In this document: positions 25,567-33,441 of the stretch, one piece after another
How positions within the stretch are numbered: the stretch's first letter is position 1
Layout of the letters: each line of letters starts with the position of its first letter
Source of the DNA: Hyphomicrobiales bacterium
GTDB lineage: Bacteria; Pseudomonadota; Alphaproteobacteria; Rhizobiales; Devosiaceae
Reading direction: 5' to 3'
NCBI GenBank assembly: GCA_004144345.1
Contig: SEEL01000029.1
Location: forward strand, 1 to 43,150
Length of the DNA stretch: 43,150 nucleotides
Made by a program: the position numbers and the translations under genes
Notes under the pieces: generated by a model
What the model was told of the DNA's origin: nothing
What the model saw: the letters and a program-made list of their open reading frames with translations, nothing else
The model's database searches: none

Positions 25567-25706
25567 CGGTGGATACTCACGCGGAAAACTTCACAAGGGC
25601 GTGAGTAAGCCAACCGAATGCGGAGATTCGACGTAGCTAATGGGACGACGCGCGGACCAAAGCGGGGCACAAATGTGGCCTCCTCCCCGCGGCGACGGAG
25701 GCCCGC

Positions 25707-29237: not shown

Positions 29238-29423
29238 CCCCCACCCACCGCCTTCCCCCCTCGCGCTTTCTTGCGCTCTGTCCAAAGCACGCGGAGACGC
29301 GTGCTTCGACCAACCGCTGAGTGGGGAGGGATGGGCTCCGCTCAAGGTGCCGGCAGTCGGGTCTCCCTCCTCGGCGCGCAGCGCTGGGGAGGGGGGACCA
29401 CGCGTAGCGTGGTGGGTGGGGCA
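29238..29423. repeat. Mosaic repeat module, copy 2
   Basis: Same module as 20791-20929, with about 50 extra bases inserted after the first arm (TCGCGCTTTCTTGCGCTCTG and GCACGCGGAGACGCGTGCTT, itself a hairpin). It ends with the same ACCACGCGTAGCGTGGTGGG. Confidence 0.8.
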
Positions 29424-29468
29424 CACTGCGTCATCCCTTGAGGGGCCACGGTCACCGTGCTGACTGCC

Positions 29469-29494
29469 CTGGATTCCCGCCTGCGCGGGAATGA
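29469..29494. repeat. Short palindromic intergenic repeat, copy 3
   Basis: Same unit as 20748-20773 and 20998-21023, with the extended flanks of the latter. Confidence 0.8.
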
Positions 29495-29511
29495 ATTTGT
29501 GGGTGTGGCTT

Positions 29512-29570
29512 GCCCCACCCACCGGCTTCGCCGGTCCCCCCTACCCGGTGGGGAGGGATGGGCTCCGTGG
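29512..29570. repeat. Mosaic repeat module, copy 3 (first half)
   Basis: Matches the first half of the module at 20791-20929 up to GATGGGCTCC, then diverges. 29571-29730 is G/C-rich, with CTCCACTCAAGGTGC again shared with copy 1, and no gene. Confidence 0.75.
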
Positions 29571-29732
29571 TTGAGGCAACTCCGGCTGCCGGCTTCGCGG
29601 GGCTGCGCATCACAGGACTTGGCTCCACTCAAGGTGCTCCCCCCTCCACCACGCGAGGGCGTGGTCCCCCTCCCCCGCAGGCGGGAGAGGACGCCGACTG
29701 CCGGGCGCCGTGAGGAGGTCGAGAATGTCCTG

Positions 29733-29876
29733 AAAACTAAAAGGCCTCGCTCGAGGGGATGAGCGAGGCCTTCGGGTTATTCGCCGGAGCGAATGACCGT
29801 TGAGAGGCGGCCAGGGAGGAGGAAGGCCGCGATTCTCTGGAACTGCGCCAGGGAGGAGGATTGGCAGGCAGTTCGT
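29733..29876 (-). ncRNA. Cuckoo-like (alpha-r14-like) small RNA 1 with two CCTCCTCCC loops
   Basis: Minus-strand RNA of about 144 nt. Hairpin 1 (29841-29873) pairs AACTGC and GCCA with TGGC and GCAGTT and shows ATCCTCCTCCC in the loop. Hairpin 2 (29807-29830) pairs GCGGCC with GGCCGC around TTCCTCCTCCCT. A third hairpin, ATTCGC-TCCG-GCGAAT, is at 29779-29794. The terminator has a 12-bp perfect stem (29741-29752 with 29761-29772) followed by TTAGTTTT. CCTCCTCCC is complementary to the Shine-Dalgarno consensus; sRNAs with this loop motif are known in alphaproteobacteria (cuckoo family, alpha-r14, CcsR of Rhodobacter) and would bind ribosome binding sites or the proteins that do. The 5' end is inferred from the promoter at 29883-29911. 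Confidence 0.8.
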
Positions 29877-29882
29877 GGGTCC

Positions 29883-29911
29883 GTTATGCGGTCCCCGACC
29901 GAGTCCGACAA
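29883..29911 (-). promoter_or_regulatory. Putative promoter of small RNA 1
   Basis: On the minus strand TTGTCG is followed after 17 bp by CATAAC (29883-29888). Initiation about seven bases later, near 29876, puts hairpin 1 at the very 5' end of the RNA. Confidence 0.5.
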
Positions 29912-29974
29912 ACGCGAAGTCGGAAGCCCACCCATGCCAAAACGCATAGGTCGATGTTCAGCGGACGGTCGGAC

Positions 29975-30145
29975 AAAAAAAGGGGCTCCATCCGAAGATG
30001 GAGCCCTACGAAAGTGTGGCAAACGGACGAGGGAGGAGGATACGCCGTTTGCCTATGGACCTTGCCGAGGGAGGAGGATTCGGCTCGATCCGTGCCGGGA
30101 GATGCGGGACCGCGGGAGGAGGATGCGGTGCGGCGTCTCAGCGAC
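29975..30145 (-). ncRNA. Cuckoo-like small RNA 2 with three CCTCCTCCC loops
   Basis: Minus-strand RNA of about 171 nt. Three hairpins present the same loop: ACCGC/GCGGT (30109-30129), GCCGA/TCGGC (30064-30084) and the long GGCAAACGG/CCGTTTGCC (30018-30053). In each the loop contains CCTCCTCCC (plus-strand GGGAGGAGG at 30114-30122, 30069-30077 and 30031-30039). The terminator is textbook: a 10-bp perfect stem GGGCTCCATC with a TTCG tetraloop (29983-30006) and seven T residues. Stems differ in sequence while loops are kept, which indicates selection on the loop and on pairing. Confidence 0.82.
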
Positions 30146-30151
30146 AAGGTG

Positions 30152-30180
30152 AATATGCTGTTTCAAAGCGGTTTAAGCAA
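30152..30180 (-). promoter_or_regulatory. Promoter of small RNA 2
   Basis: On the minus strand TTGCTT (30175-30180), 17 bp, CATATT (30152-30157). The layout aligns base for base with the promoter of small RNA 3. Confidence 0.6.
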
Positions 30181-30182
30181 TG

Positions 30183-30207
30183 CGCTCACTGACATGCCAG
30201 CCATGCA
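30183..30207 (-). promoter_or_regulatory. Conserved 25-bp box upstream of small RNA 2 promoter
   Basis: Contains GACATGCCAGCCATGCA (plus strand, 30191-30207). The counterpart at 30487-30511 has GACATGCCTGCTATGCA at exactly the same distance from -35. CATG occurs twice in the box. It is a candidate activator site. Confidence 0.6.
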
Positions 30208-30339
30208 CTCAGCGCAGGTAAGGTCAGGTATGTTGACCCATTTTGTCGCAGGCTGCCGCCCGTTCAGGCACTGTTAACCGATAGGCGGTGTCGGGGGGCG
30301 GCCGAACGGCGAGCAAAAAACGCATAGCTCATGGCGGCA

Positions 30340-30449
30340 GAAACAATAAGGCCCTGCTCGAGGGGGAGCAGGGCCAATTGAAGGAGGCGAGGGAGCCTCC
30401 GACAGGAGGGACACAGAGAGCTGGGAGGGAGAAGTGCCCGCTGCGTCTG
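30340..30449 (-). ncRNA. Divergent cuckoo-like small RNA 3
   Basis: Minus-strand RNA of about 110 nt. It carries pyrimidine-rich, anti-Shine-Dalgarno-like stretches: CTCCCTCCC near the 5' end (30423-30431), CCCTCC (30404-30410 region), and a hairpin GGAGGC-TCCCTC-GCCTCC (30383-30400). The terminator stem GGCCCTGCTC/GAGCAGGGCC (30350-30375) is followed by TTATTGTTT. Promoter and upstream box match small RNA 2, but the exact CCTCCTCCC loops are lost or altered. It may be a divergent or specialised paralogue. Confidence 0.65.
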
Positions 30450-30455
30450 ACCGGG

Positions 30456-30484
30456 GATATAGGGTGGTGAACGATTCTGCTCAA
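30456..30484 (-). promoter_or_regulatory. Promoter of small RNA 3
   Basis: On the minus strand TTGAGC (30479-30484), 17 bp, TATATC (30456-30461). Initiation would be near 30449. Confidence 0.6.
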
Positions 30485-30486
30485 TG

Positions 30487-30511
30487 AAATCAACGACATG
30501 CCTGCTATGCA
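30487..30511 (-). promoter_or_regulatory. Conserved 25-bp box upstream of small RNA 3 promoter
   Basis: Shares 18 of 25 positions with 30183-30207, and 15 of 17 in the core GACATGCCNGCNATGCA, at the same distance from -35. Just upstream (30506-30522) ATGCATCGCATGCAT forms a further small palindrome. Confidence 0.6.
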
Positions 30512-30553
30512 TCGCATGCATATGGTTTGAATACTAACTAAAGTCGTATGGCC

Positions 30554-31063
30554 TCACTCGCCAGCGACAAGCTCCGCCAGCACGGCGCGCAGATCGCCGC
30601 CGGTGGCGTAGGCGATATTGTCGACACGCCAGAAAGCGGCCTGGAAAGCGGGCATCTCAACGCGCTTGAGCAACAGGGTGTCGGTGAAGTTGGCATCCGG
30701 CTGATCGGGGAAGGCGTAGGCGATTTCGACCCGCGCATCGGATTTCATCAGGGTGACGAGCCCGACAGTGCATTCGGGCGCATAGTCGGGCCAGGCCTGC
30801 CACGGGATGCCGTCGCCGAGCGGCGGCTTTTCGCCGGGATTGGCGGCTTCCCAGGCGGCATTTGCCGCCCATGCTTCCGCCATGCCGGATTTGAGGGCGG
30901 GCGAGAGCAGGCCCTCGATGGCGCCTTCATCATTGCCGGTGCGCGACAGGCAGAAGATCTGGCCGATCTGCTCGGGCTTGAGCGTGGCCATGCTGTCGTC
31001 GGCGCGGACCGGCACGGCAACGAAGCCTGCGGCGAGCAGGATGGCGAGGAGAGATGAGCGCAT
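30554..31063 (-). CDS. Secreted protein of unknown function, paralogue A
   Basis: 169 residues with a signal peptide (SSLLAILLAAGFVAVPVRA, cleavage before DDS). The mature part begins LKPEQIGQIFCLSRTGNDEG and contains two cysteines (in IFCLSR and PECTVG), which could pair. The neighbouring gene at 31130-31534 encodes a protein with the same layout (IS-RLYCEALVAADMSTVQPIL and a Cys before RMVGA). I do not recognise a named family. ATG 31063 is preferred to a TTG at 31075 because GGGG lies upstream of it and the signal peptide then starts directly. Confidence 0.75.
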   Translation of the reverse strand: MRSSLLAILLAAGFVAVPVRADDSMATLKPEQIGQIFCLSRTGNDEGAIEGLLSPALKSGMAEAWAANAAWEAANPGEKPPLGDGIPWQAWPDYAPECTVGLVTLMKSDARVEIAYAFPDQPDANFTDTLLLKRVEMPAFQAAFWRVDNIAYATGGDLRAVLAELVAGE

Positions 31064-31129
31064 GAAAACCCCCAAATGACGCTGTTGGCGCCGTATGGGC
31101 GGGGGTGGCTGAACCGGCGCTGAACCGGA

Positions 31130-31534
31130 TTATTGCGCGGCGAGCGATTGGCGGAGCGAGCCGCCATCGGCGAAGGCGACGTCGTTTATGCGGATCTGTT
31201 CGTCGATGAAGCTCAGGACCAGGCGGTCGGAGCCGGAGGTGCCGTCGGCGAGCATGTAGAACAGCACGGCCTCGGGGTGGTCGAAGCTGCCACTGGCGCC
31301 GACCATGCGGCAGGCGGTGACGGTGCCGGGGTAACCCTGCCAGACAATGCCGGTGCGGCCTTCGATGGTGGTGGTGAGGTCGGGCGTCAGGATGGGCTGC
31401 ACCGTGCTCATGTCGGCAGCGACGAGGGCTTCGCAATAAAGGCGCGAAATGTCGTTGAGGCTGAGCGTCGACTGGGCGAGGGCGGGCGTCGCGATCGAGG
31501 CGGCGAGGACGGCGGCAACAAACAAACGGTGCAT
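31130..31534 (-). CDS. Secreted protein of unknown function, paralogue B
   Basis: 134 residues with a signal peptide (MHRLFVAAVLAASIATPALA, cleavage before QST). The mature part is related to the product of 30554-31063: start of transcription-independent blocks are the helix DISRLYCEALVAADMSTVQP, a Thr/Cys strand YPGTVTACRMVGA, and RLVLSFIDEQIRINDVAFAD, in which FIDEQIRINDV parallels VEMPAFQAAFWRVDNI of the paralogue. An NTF2-like small domain is possible. It lies 5 bases after vtlR and may be read through from it. Confidence 0.72.
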   Translation of the reverse strand: MHRLFVAAVLAASIATPALAQSTLSLNDISRLYCEALVAADMSTVQPILTPDLTTTIEGRTGIVWQGYPGTVTACRMVGASGSFDHPEAVLFYMLADGTSGSDRLVLSFIDEQIRINDVAFADGGSLRQSLAAQ

Positions 31535-31539
31535 CGGGA

Positions 31540-32433
31540 CTAGAACTGCCACTCGCGGGCTTTGCCGACAAGGAAATCGCGGAAAACGCCGACGCGCTTC
31601 GAATTCTTGAGGGCAGGGGGATAGACGAAATAGGCTTCGTAGGCCGGCAGTTCGACGCCGGTCAGCACGCGCTTCAGCCGGGTTTCGTTCTCGGTGACAT
31701 AGTCGGGCAGCATGGCGATGCCGATGCCGGCGCGGCACGCCTGCATCATGCCCATGATGGCGTTGACCTTCATGGAGGCACGGCGCGGCGAGGAATCGGC
31801 GCGGCCGAGGCGCTCGAGATAATTGATGTCGCCCAGATGCTGCGGCACCGGCTCGCCGAAGGTGATGATGCGGTGCTGGTCGAGCTCTTCGAGGGTGCGC
31901 GGCTCGCCATGCTCGGCGAGATAGTCGAGCGACACGTAGAAGTGGTTGTGCACCGTGAACAGCTTGCGCTGGATCATTTCCGACTGGTTCGGGCGGTGCA
32001 GGCGGATGGCCACGTCGGCCTCGCGCATGGCGAGATCGAGCTCGGAATCGTTGAGTTTGATGTCGATCTGGATGTCCGGATAGAGCATCAGGAATTCGTG
32101 GATGCGGCTCGACAGCCAGGTGGAGCCGATGCCCACCGTGGTGGTGACGATGAGCTGGCCGGTCGGCACGTCCTGGCTCTCGGACATCAGCTCCTGCACC
32201 TGCAGCAGTTCGGACTGCATGCGGTGGGCGGTGCGGAACAATTGCTCGCCCACTTCGGTGAGCACGAGGCCGCGCGCGTGGCGAATGAACAGCTTCAGCC
32301 CGAGATCTTCCTCGAGCGCCGAAATCTGCCGCGACACGGCAGACTGGCTCATGTTCAGCTTCTCGGCTGCATGGGTGAAGCTCCCGGACTCCGCGGCGGT
32401 ATGGAAGATCCTGAGCTTGTCCCAGTCGAGCAT
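31540..32433 (-). CDS. vtlR: LysR-family regulator of the VtlR/LsrB type
   Basis: 297 residues. The N terminus MLDWDKLRIFHTAAESGSFT and the helix-turn-helix KLNMSQSAVSRQISALEEDL (about 27-46) are very close to VtlR of Brucella/Agrobacterium and LsrB of Sinorhizobium, which also lie directly behind trxB. The C-terminal effector domain runs from about 90. The known proteins activate small RNA and small-protein genes (VtlR) and oxidative-stress functions (LsrB). The gene starts 2 bases after trxB ends, so both are one transcript. Its regulon here is unknown, but small RNA genes lie 1.1 kb away. Confidence 0.88.
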   Translation of the reverse strand: MLDWDKLRIFHTAAESGSFTHAAEKLNMSQSAVSRQISALEEDLGLKLFIRHARGLVLTEVGEQLFRTAHRMQSELLQVQELMSESQDVPTGQLIVTTTVGIGSTWLSSRIHEFLMLYPDIQIDIKLNDSELDLAMREADVAIRLHRPNQSEMIQRKLFTVHNHFYVSLDYLAEHGEPRTLEELDQHRIITFGEPVPQHLGDINYLERLGRADSSPRRASMKVNAIMGMMQACRAGIGIAMLPDYVTENETRLKRVLTGVELPAYEAYFVYPPALKNSKRVGVFRDFLVGKAREWQF

Positions 32434-32435
32434 GA

Positions 32436-33386
32436 TTACTCCGCGGCTTCGGCCAGATCTTCGGCGGCGAGGAAACGTTCGGCTTCGAGGGCGGCCATGC
32501 AGCCCATGCCCGCGGCGGTGACCGCCTGGCGGTAGACGTCGTCGGTGACGTCACCGGCGGCGAAGACGCCCGGGATGTTGGTCTCGGTGGTGCCCGGCTT
32601 CACCTGCAGATAGCCGCCGGGCTTCATGTCGAGCTTGCCGGCAAAGATCGAGGTGGAGGGCGTGTGGCCGATGGCGACGAAGATGCCGTCGACGGGAATG
32701 GCACTGGTCTCGCCGGTGGTGGTGTTGCGCAGCACCGCGCCGGTGACCGAGGGCGGCATGTTGGTGCCGGTGATGTCGGCCAGCTCGGTATTCCACAGCA
32801 CTTCGATCTTGGGGTGCTTGAACAGCCGGTCCTGCAGGATGCGCTCGGCGCGGAACTCGCTGCGGCGATGCACGACCGTGACCTTGGAGGCGAAATTGGT
32901 GAGGAACAGCGCTTCCTCGACCGCGGTGTTGCCGCCGCCGATCACCAGCACATGCTTGTCGCGATAGAAGAAGCCATCGCAGGTGGCGCAGGCACTTACG
33001 CCAAAGCCCTGAAATTTCGATTCAGAGGGGAGGCCGAGCCAGCGCGCCTGGGCGCCGGTGGCGACGATGACGGAATCGGCGGTGTAGACCTTGCCGCTGT
33101 CGCCGGTGAGGCGGAACGGGCGATGGTCGAAATCGACGTCGACGATGAGGTCGTGGGCGATTTTGGTGCCGACATGCTCGGCCTGTGCCTTCATCTGCTC
33201 CATGAGCCAGGGGCCCTGGATGACGTCGGCGAAGCCCGGGTAGTTCTCGACATCGGTGGTGATGGTCAGCTGGCCGCCCGGCTGGGTGCCCATGATCATC
33301 AGCGGCTCAAGCATTGCGCGAGCCGCATAGATAGCCGCGGTATATCCGGCCGGTCCCGACCCGATAATCACAACCTTGGAGTGCAT
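32436..33386 (-). CDS. trxB: Thioredoxin reductase
   Basis: 316 residues, NADPH-dependent flavoprotein that reduces thioredoxin. FAD-binding IIGSGPAGYTAAIYAARA is at the N terminus, the redox-active pair is in ACATCDGFFYRD near residue 135, the NADPH site is VIGGGNTAVEEALFL, and the second FAD motif is GVFAAGDVTDDVYRQAV. Start ATG 33386 follows GAGGGA by a normal spacing; the longer in-frame start at 33413 has none. It is the first gene of trxB-vtlR. Confidence 0.95.
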   Translation of the reverse strand: MHSKVVIIGSGPAGYTAAIYAARAMLEPLMIMGTQPGGQLTITTDVENYPGFADVIQGPWLMEQMKAQAEHVGTKIAHDLIVDVDFDHRPFRLTGDSGKVYTADSVIVATGAQARWLGLPSESKFQGFGVSACATCDGFFYRDKHVLVIGGGNTAVEEALFLTNFASKVTVVHRRSEFRAERILQDRLFKHPKIEVLWNTELADITGTNMPPSVTGAVLRNTTTGETSAIPVDGIFVAIGHTPSTSIFAGKLDMKPGGYLQVKPGTTETNIPGVFAAGDVTDDVYRQAVTAAGMGCMAALEAERFLAAEDLAEAAE

Positions 33387-33411
33387 CTGATAGTCCCTCG
33401 TATAGGCTAGC

Positions 33412-33441
33412 AATGTAGTAGCCGAGCTATGTCGCTTTCAA
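33412..33441 (-). promoter_or_regulatory. Putative promoter of trxB-vtlR
   Basis: On the minus strand TTGAAA (33436-33441), 18 bp, TACATT (33412-33417). It lies within the 260-bp gap to greA, whose remainder (33442-33646) shows nothing I can call. Confidence 0.45.

Follow-up and report, generated by a model that had tools for sequence, protein, structure and literature searches.

A vtlR-linked row of predicted anti-Shine-Dalgarno small RNAs in Devosia, with VtlR-type boxes ahead of its units

What kind of locus lies downstream of a LysR-type regulator gene in a Devosiaceae bacterium where hairpin after hairpin presents the same C-rich loop, and what could such loops serve? The window analysed here is the whole stretch of 43,150 nucleotides of contig SEEL01000029.1 (assembly GCA_004144345.1, Hyphomicrobiales bacterium). 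The original prediction placed three tandem small RNA genes with terminators of their own on its minus strand, and three intrinsic terminators were located, confirming this layout (Table 1). Five identical CCTCCTCCC loops on unlike stems had also been described; single-sequence folds bear this out, as all five copies in the array are unpaired hairpin loops carried by different stems. That only RNA1 and RNA2 bear loops is true of the exact loop word, but RNA3 is C-rich as well and carries the degenerate motifs CTCCCTCCC and CCCTCC. RNA3 is the first RNA unit past vtlR, about 1 kb off with two short ORFs in the gap; the window frames 30554-31075 and 31130-31570, between vtlR and the array, have no Pfam or NCBIfam match, and 13 short frames overlap the array when both strands are counted. 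Judged by its sequence, the array is real and conserved, composed of predicted RNAs of kinds known elsewhere in an arrangement that is new. It is likely that the locus is an array of trans-acting sRNAs controlled by VtlR/LsrB, the loops of which would block the Shine-Dalgarno (SD) sites of uptake-gene mRNAs.

Table 1. Coordinates of the array and its neighbours within the window.
Feature	Position	Strand	Remarks
trxB, thioredoxin reductase	32436..33413	-	TIGR01292 above cut-off
vtlR/lsrB orthologue	31540..32433	-	LysR-type, 297 aa; proposed activator
RNA3 box	30498..30511	-	TGCATAGCAGGCAT; TGCA-N6-GCAT form
RNA3 putative promoter	30457..30484	-	TTGAGC - 16 nt - CTATAT; by analogy with the aligned consensus
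RNA3 (unit A)	30347..30450	-	AbcR-like layout; R2 model match; predicted ends; order: CTCCCTCCC-loop hairpin, single-stranded CCCTCC stretch, second hairpin, terminator
RNA3 terminator	30375-30350	-	intrinsic
RNA2 box	30194..30207	-	TGCATGGCTGGCAT; both published forms
RNA2 putative promoter	30152..30180	-	TTGCTT - 17 nt - CATATT
RNA2 (unit B)	29975..30145	-	alpha-r14-type; three CCTCCTCCC loops; predicted ends
RNA2 CCTCCTCCC copies	30114-30122, 30069-30077, 30031-30039	-	
RNA2 terminator	30006-29983	-	intrinsic
RNA1 box	29925..29937	-	GCATGGGTGGGCT; GCAT-N3-TG-N3-T form
RNA1 putative promoter	29883..29911	-	TTGTCG - 17 nt - CATAAC
RNA1 (unit D type)	29737..29876	-	two CCTCCTCCC hairpins, small third hairpin; predicted ends
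RNA1 CCTCCTCCC copies	29851-29859, 29814-29822	-	
RNA1 terminator	29773-29740	-	intrinsic

The regulator gene had been named vtlR from the outset, and the name holds. Its product has its nearest named relatives in Devosia sp. (93% identity) and matches PDB entry 9hh1_A with an E-value of 1.6e-107. The cysteines of 9hh1_A, counted in the alignment, lie at 144, 236, 244 and 273; because the cysteines of Agrobacterium LsrB carry these same numbers in PMC11975290, 9hh1_A was taken as LsrB/VtlR. By this match the gene is a VtlR/LsrB orthologue, and it adjoins trxB, given in the same paper as the usual lsrB neighbour in Rhizobiales. As a separate observation, Devosia VtlR is without both conserved redox cysteines: the window protein has Val at 144 and 273, and among 66 loci (L009-L074) none of the 63 that could be read at position 144, and none of the 57 that could be read at position 273, has a Cys there. 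Since the redox cysteines are absent, the signal of Devosia VtlR may differ.

The loop word itself is found six times in the window against 0.44 expected, a number reached by none of 100 shuffles; the sixth copy is at 25679, outside the array. Genome-wide there is no enrichment of CCTCCTCCC, with 31 matches and also 31 for the reversed control, so that the signal is the cluster of motifs and not the word. Outside arrays, no motif pairs at most 60 nt apart were seen in 1.44 Mb, both strands, of array-bearing related loci. A chance run of C-rich sequence is ruled out by this clustering together with the stem covariation described below.

A search with the LysR protein yielded 76 loci, 64 of which were taken as Devosia-type (L009-L071, L073); the 12 excluded have at most 51% identity, consist of a 39-residue piece or belong to other LysR genes. 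At least two copies of CCTCCTCCC within 1.6 kb are present in 56/56 Devosia-type loci having at least 3.7 kb of downstream flank, and in the eight with less than 3.7 kb the motif is present in three and absent from five. The number of exact motifs per array ranges from 2 to 10, seven being the commonest (22/56 loci); two or more three-loop units occur in 36 of the 56 loci, one in 17 and none in 3. An R2 model built on the first unit (A) from 19 training rows, the window row among them, detects that unit at 42 bits or more in 32/36 sources, missing in L011, L022, L062 and L063. It matches RNA3 at 30347-30447 with 62.3 bits (E 4.2e-11; RNA3 itself is a training row) and also gives RNA1 of the window 42.6 bits. 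In about ten relatives a fourth unit (D) follows the three-loop units, and RNA1 has in common with it the promoter words (GCGTTTGT), the third hairpin and the terminator. The full array is read here as A-B-C-D; in the window, A is represented by RNA3, B by RNA2 and D by RNA1, unit C being absent. The unit types are relative because RNA1 also scores as ar14 (39.1 bits). RNA1 is a third type in the window, not a plain duplicate of RNA2.

Compensatory changes in the stems, for which a comparison of the locus in related genomes had been proposed, are found in both alignments of three-loop units. The first alignment (A1) holds 51 RNA2-type sequences, namely the window and 50 of the 55 available first three-loop units; it leaves out L033, L057, L058, L062 and L068, where the three-loop cluster met first probably corresponds to the second unit. 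In A1, 20/31 predicted pairs have changed on both sides with pairing preserved, and 97.0% of its cells are paired against 33-48% when partners are slid. The second alignment (A2) comprises all 38 second three-loop units and the window row; it assumed RNA1 to be the orthologue of the second three-loop unit, an assumption ruled out by the promoter words, third hairpin and terminator that fit unit D. The window row is therefore misplaced in A2, and its counts speak for unit C of the relatives, with both-side pair-keeping changes in 25/40 pairs and 95.1% of cells paired against 27-52% for slid partners. The A1 and A2 structures were derived from the same alignments, which gives them an advantage over the slid versions; the covariation score was matched by 0/500 shuffles in A1 and A2 alike. 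Loop constancy in both sets is partly by choice, because a unit had to have three exact motifs to be included. Among 13 sequences of the RNA1 type, both-side changes affect 7/21 pairs, and 11/13 rows keep the exact motif.

To which known RNAs are these units related? With Rfam's own thresholds, the covariance-model search originally proposed gave no small-RNA match in the whole window and one tRNA only. Below threshold, RNA1 and RNA2 both fit RF02344 (ar14) best among the Rfam families, at 39.1 bits (E 1.9e-5) and 36.8 bits (E 6.1e-5), and the window units (39.1, 36.8 and 22.8 bits) all lie under its gathering score of 58.8. One more weak ar14 candidate (30.8 bits) is located on another contig of the window's genome. 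None of the 31 genomes of a looser ar14 search reached the RF02344 gathering cut-off; a unit downstream of vtlR in a genome of another genus of the same family (G134) scores 62.2 bits, above the gathering score. With ar14 as best family and the G134 unit above cut-off, the proposed alpha-r14/cuckoo/CcsR-type identity next to vtlR holds. Cuckoo-type RNAs are described as having two to four CCUCCUCCC-loop hairpins and several copies per genome (PMC3927594). Hairpin loops of CCUCCUCCC on variable stems are likewise a feature of alpha-r14/NfeR1 (RF02344), cuckoo, RFMSmelA075 and RFMSmelA099, and the repeated CCUCCUCCC loop is shared by RNA2, with three loops, and RNA1, with two. A further trait of the alpha-r14/cuckoo group is anti-SD silencing of mRNAs that does not depend on Hfq. 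Unlike in alpha-r14 and cuckoo, the units here are lined up next to vtlR, and each is preceded by a box.

RNA3 is placed by layout. It is not supported as a plain member of Rfam ar15: RF02345 (AbcR, ar15) gives no match at E 1 over 29500-30700 or at E 0.1 in the whole genome, and an AbcR model run over Devosia loci did not detect unit A in 27 sources. The arrangement of C-rich stretches in RNA3 resembles that of AbcR, but the sequence differs. In PMC3712013 and PMC8844928, AbcR1 and AbcR2 (alpha-r15) are tandem sRNAs adjoining lsrB/vtlR, with an anti-SD loop and a VtlR box before AbcR1; RNA3, with its VtlR-type box, has that place and layout. Unlike AbcR, RNA3 is without the word GCTGTTCCCCTC, present in 13/59 vtlR-downstream stretches, and unlike the AbcR pair, one AbcR-like unit is followed here by multi-loop units. 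Counterparts of RNA3 with the full CCTCCTCCC were seen in 25 loci, these being loci found by that motif. It is possible, though not what we would expect, that RNA3 is an alpha-r14 relative with lost loops and no counterpart of AbcR; the missing ar15 match, an E-value of 0.077 against ar14 and the failure of the AbcR model on unit A would fit such an origin, whereas unit A comes first after vtlR and has, besides one loop motif, an unpaired CU-rich segment ahead of hairpin 2.

The corresponding position in other families of the order bears on this choice. A VtlR relative was found in 113/120 genomes of the order, and the surroundings of vtlR were taken from 59 genomes (L143-L201), of which 55 belong to families other than that of the window; L143 is not independent because it is the same locus as L032. 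RF02345 was detected at E 0.01 in 18/120 genomes, above its cut-off in four, and in 12/18, including all four above cut-off, it is on the vtlR strand and no more than 0.8 kb past the gene. RF02344 was detected at E 0.005 in 49/120 genomes, above cut-off in 17, and lies at most 3.5 kb downstream of vtlR in 7/49, a number that contig breaks could keep too low. Those seven genomes represent all five sampled genera of the window's family, presumably Devosiaceae, and both genomes of family f6, with only G134 above cut-off; in both f6 genomes the exact loop motif is absent from the vtlR-linked ar14-like units. Control matches numbered 0/14 for the RF02345 and RF02344 searches over 120 genomes, and 1/14 and 3/14 for the looser ar14 and ar15 searches. 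Outside the window's family the R2 model gave 18 weak matches (E up to 5), 12 of which share the strand of vtlR and begin no further than 600 nt beyond it on the downstream side (binomial 1e-10). This speaks for RNA3 as the AbcR counterpart and against an alpha-r14 origin, but layout alone could give the same result, and the placement of weak R2 matches beside vtlR could reflect shared layout instead of descent. Two further observations were made at these places. Downstream of vtlR, the f6 loci L168 and L169 have two tandem weak ar14-like units, and in families f38 and f48, L161 (G056) and L170 (G066) each have three similar C-rich hairpin units beside vtlR, about 215-330 bp apart, with loop sequences that differ from CCTCCTCCC.

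The link between array and regulator is carried by the boxes. Two forms of the VtlR/LsrB box are published, GCAT-N3-TG-N3-T (PMC7486931, PMC8844928) and TGCA-N6-GCAT (PMC10746234). Such words in the window alone are hardly above chance (11 against 5.67 expected and 6 against 2.40; 3/100 and 4/100 shuffles are as high), so the evidence rests on comparison across units. GCATRGC is found 95 to 66 nt before the first loop in 94/95 three-loop units against 0.68% of 22,327 background windows, and the exact GCAT-N3-TG-N3-T 90 to 60 nt before it in 73/95 against 0.17%. Over all 142 motif clusters the counts are 117 and 99, respectively, one cluster less than 120 nt from vtlR (L028) being omitted. A motif-blind count gave 166 places with box, TTG and ATA downstream of vtlR, in 56/56 loci; at +60 to +120, the exact motif is present in 111/166 and CCTCC in 156/166, while only 2/51 control places (reverse strand or upstream of vtlR) have the exact motif. 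The relatives thus keep the loop word also where it was not used for selection, and uncompensated stems beside drifting loops are not what they contain. The comparative evidence for VtlR-type boxes is strong, and the new element is such a predicted box at a fixed distance ahead of the first loop in nearly every unit. Neither these boxes nor the AbcR-like layout of RNA3 formed part of the original prediction. Conserved structure, fixed-distance boxes and vtlR synteny are all observed in this comparison.

The box lies at about -64 to -51 relative to the predicted start; that of AbcR1 is published at -61 to -49 (PMC8844928). A generic sigma-70 scan found no promoter, and the promoters originally predicted for each unit emerge only from the alignment of relatives, in which a VtlR-type box is followed by a -35 of TTG type and a -10 of CATATT type. 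Without mismatch, TGCATRGCNGNCATG occurs only twice in the 4.1 Mb genome, both times in the array, and with up to two mismatches it occurs at 373 places against 67 for the reversed control, the pattern having been drawn from these arrays themselves. In three-loop units (L015, L025, L028 and others), the spacer between -35 and -10 frequently has an inverted repeat, for example TGACCAAACGGTCA.

The boxes might instead belong to another LysR-type or stress regulator, the vtlR synteny being inherited linkage only. In S. meliloti, AbcR2 is a neighbour of lsrB but is RpoH1-dependent (PMC8844928), and in the arrays the first exact motif is found anywhere between 0.1 and 4.3 kb from vtlR; but the boxes fit both published VtlR/LsrB forms and, for almost all units, are placed close to where published boxes lie, and an activator other than VtlR is held to be improbable.

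Under control by VtlR, as favoured here, the protein encoded just upstream would bind the box before each unit and recruit RNA polymerase to that unit's own promoter, and each RNA would stop at its own terminator. The anti-SD loops would then pair with the SD sites of several mRNAs, blocking translation; many of these mRNAs probably encode ABC-transporter binding proteins. RNA3 would fill the place and layout of AbcR, RNA2 would be an alpha-r14 (NfeR1-like) three-loop RNA and RNA1 a two-loop RNA of a third type. Binding and activation by VtlR, transcription and the targets are what we infer. In the published systems, LsrB activates AbcR1 (PMC8844928) and NfeR1 (PMC10746234), VtlR binds its own box ahead of two sRNA genes and one small-protein gene (PMC7486931), and NfeR1 and AbcR silence uptake-gene mRNAs via anti-SD stretches (PMC7143759, PMC3712013); by analogy, we infer the same anti-SD silencing of uptake-gene mRNAs in Devosia. 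The genome holds 45 sites of the form GGAGGAG-N4-9-ATG against 21 for the reversed control. Follow-up of these sites covered 30 loci, with 10/30 frames scanned (9/14 of at least 80 aa plus one of 74 aa, leaving out five longer frames that are apparently spurious), and ABC solute-binding proteins make up 2/9 of the Pfam-labelled genes at strong SD sites, a weak hint that such proteins may be among the targets.

It seems rather unlikely that the RNAs are made but serve mainly as sponges or decoys, binding SD-like sequences or titrating a protein in place of silencing mRNAs. Identical repeated loops would suit titration (five in the window, up to ten in one related array), but the array loop is presumably equal to the 16S anti-SD core, and a loop identical to that core cannot pair with the 16S anti-SD. 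Furthermore, the one alpha-r14 RNA that has been characterised, NfeR1, uses its redundant loops to silence mRNAs (PMC7143759). Silencing of mRNAs is the preferred reading.

In having related RNAs in a row, the locus is like CcsR1-4 of Rhodobacter sphaeroides, four RNAs tied in the literature to the cuckoo/CIN1 group (PMC10253847). CcsR1-4 come from one RpoHI/RpoHII-driven precursor that also includes a DUF1127 gene and is cleaved by RNase E, whereas separate terminators and boxes are found here; a CcsR/CIN1-like operon with DUF1127 was rejected, as the four DUF1127 matches of the genome are all on other contigs. VrsA of Agrobacterium is an sRNA under direct VtlR activation via the same box type (PMC7486931); it is encoded by one gene between atu4669 and atu4670, antisense to the latter, in contrast to the array described here. 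The original prediction knew of no description of the layout in this lineage; tandem rows and multi-loop RNAs are already reported in PMC3927594 and PMC10253847, and it is the vtlR-linked arrangement that is new. No description of such an array in Devosia was found in the literature searched, which excluded most subscription papers.

In S. meliloti, a single regulator, LsrB, drives NfeR1 as well as AbcR1, the latter encoded next to lsrB. If the present reading is right, Devosia combines both RNA kinds at a single site, with a VtlR-type box for each, and the array resembles a local, enlarged version of the nutrient-uptake control circuit of related bacteria; the number of loops differs between Devosia species. 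Speculatively, AbcR and alpha-r14 (NfeR1) may stem from one anti-SD locus beside vtlR, where a row of VtlR-driven units is still expanding and contracting in Devosiaceae and the number of identical loops (2-10 exact copies) might set how strongly one regulator represses nutrient uptake. The origin of both RNA families and the tuning by loop number would then be directly testable, and the VtlR-sRNA circuit would gain a simple model beyond the host-associated bacteria studied so far.

Two minor observations concern other parts of the genome and the far edge of the locus. A small DUF1127 gene of the window's genome (L241, reverse strand, about 888-1110) has a VtlR-box-like TGCATAGC upstream, and VtlR is reported to activate a small-protein gene in Agrobacterium (PMC7486931). 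Just past the array, window positions 29400-29720 are GC-rich, with inverted words such as TTCCCGCGCAGGCGGGAA.
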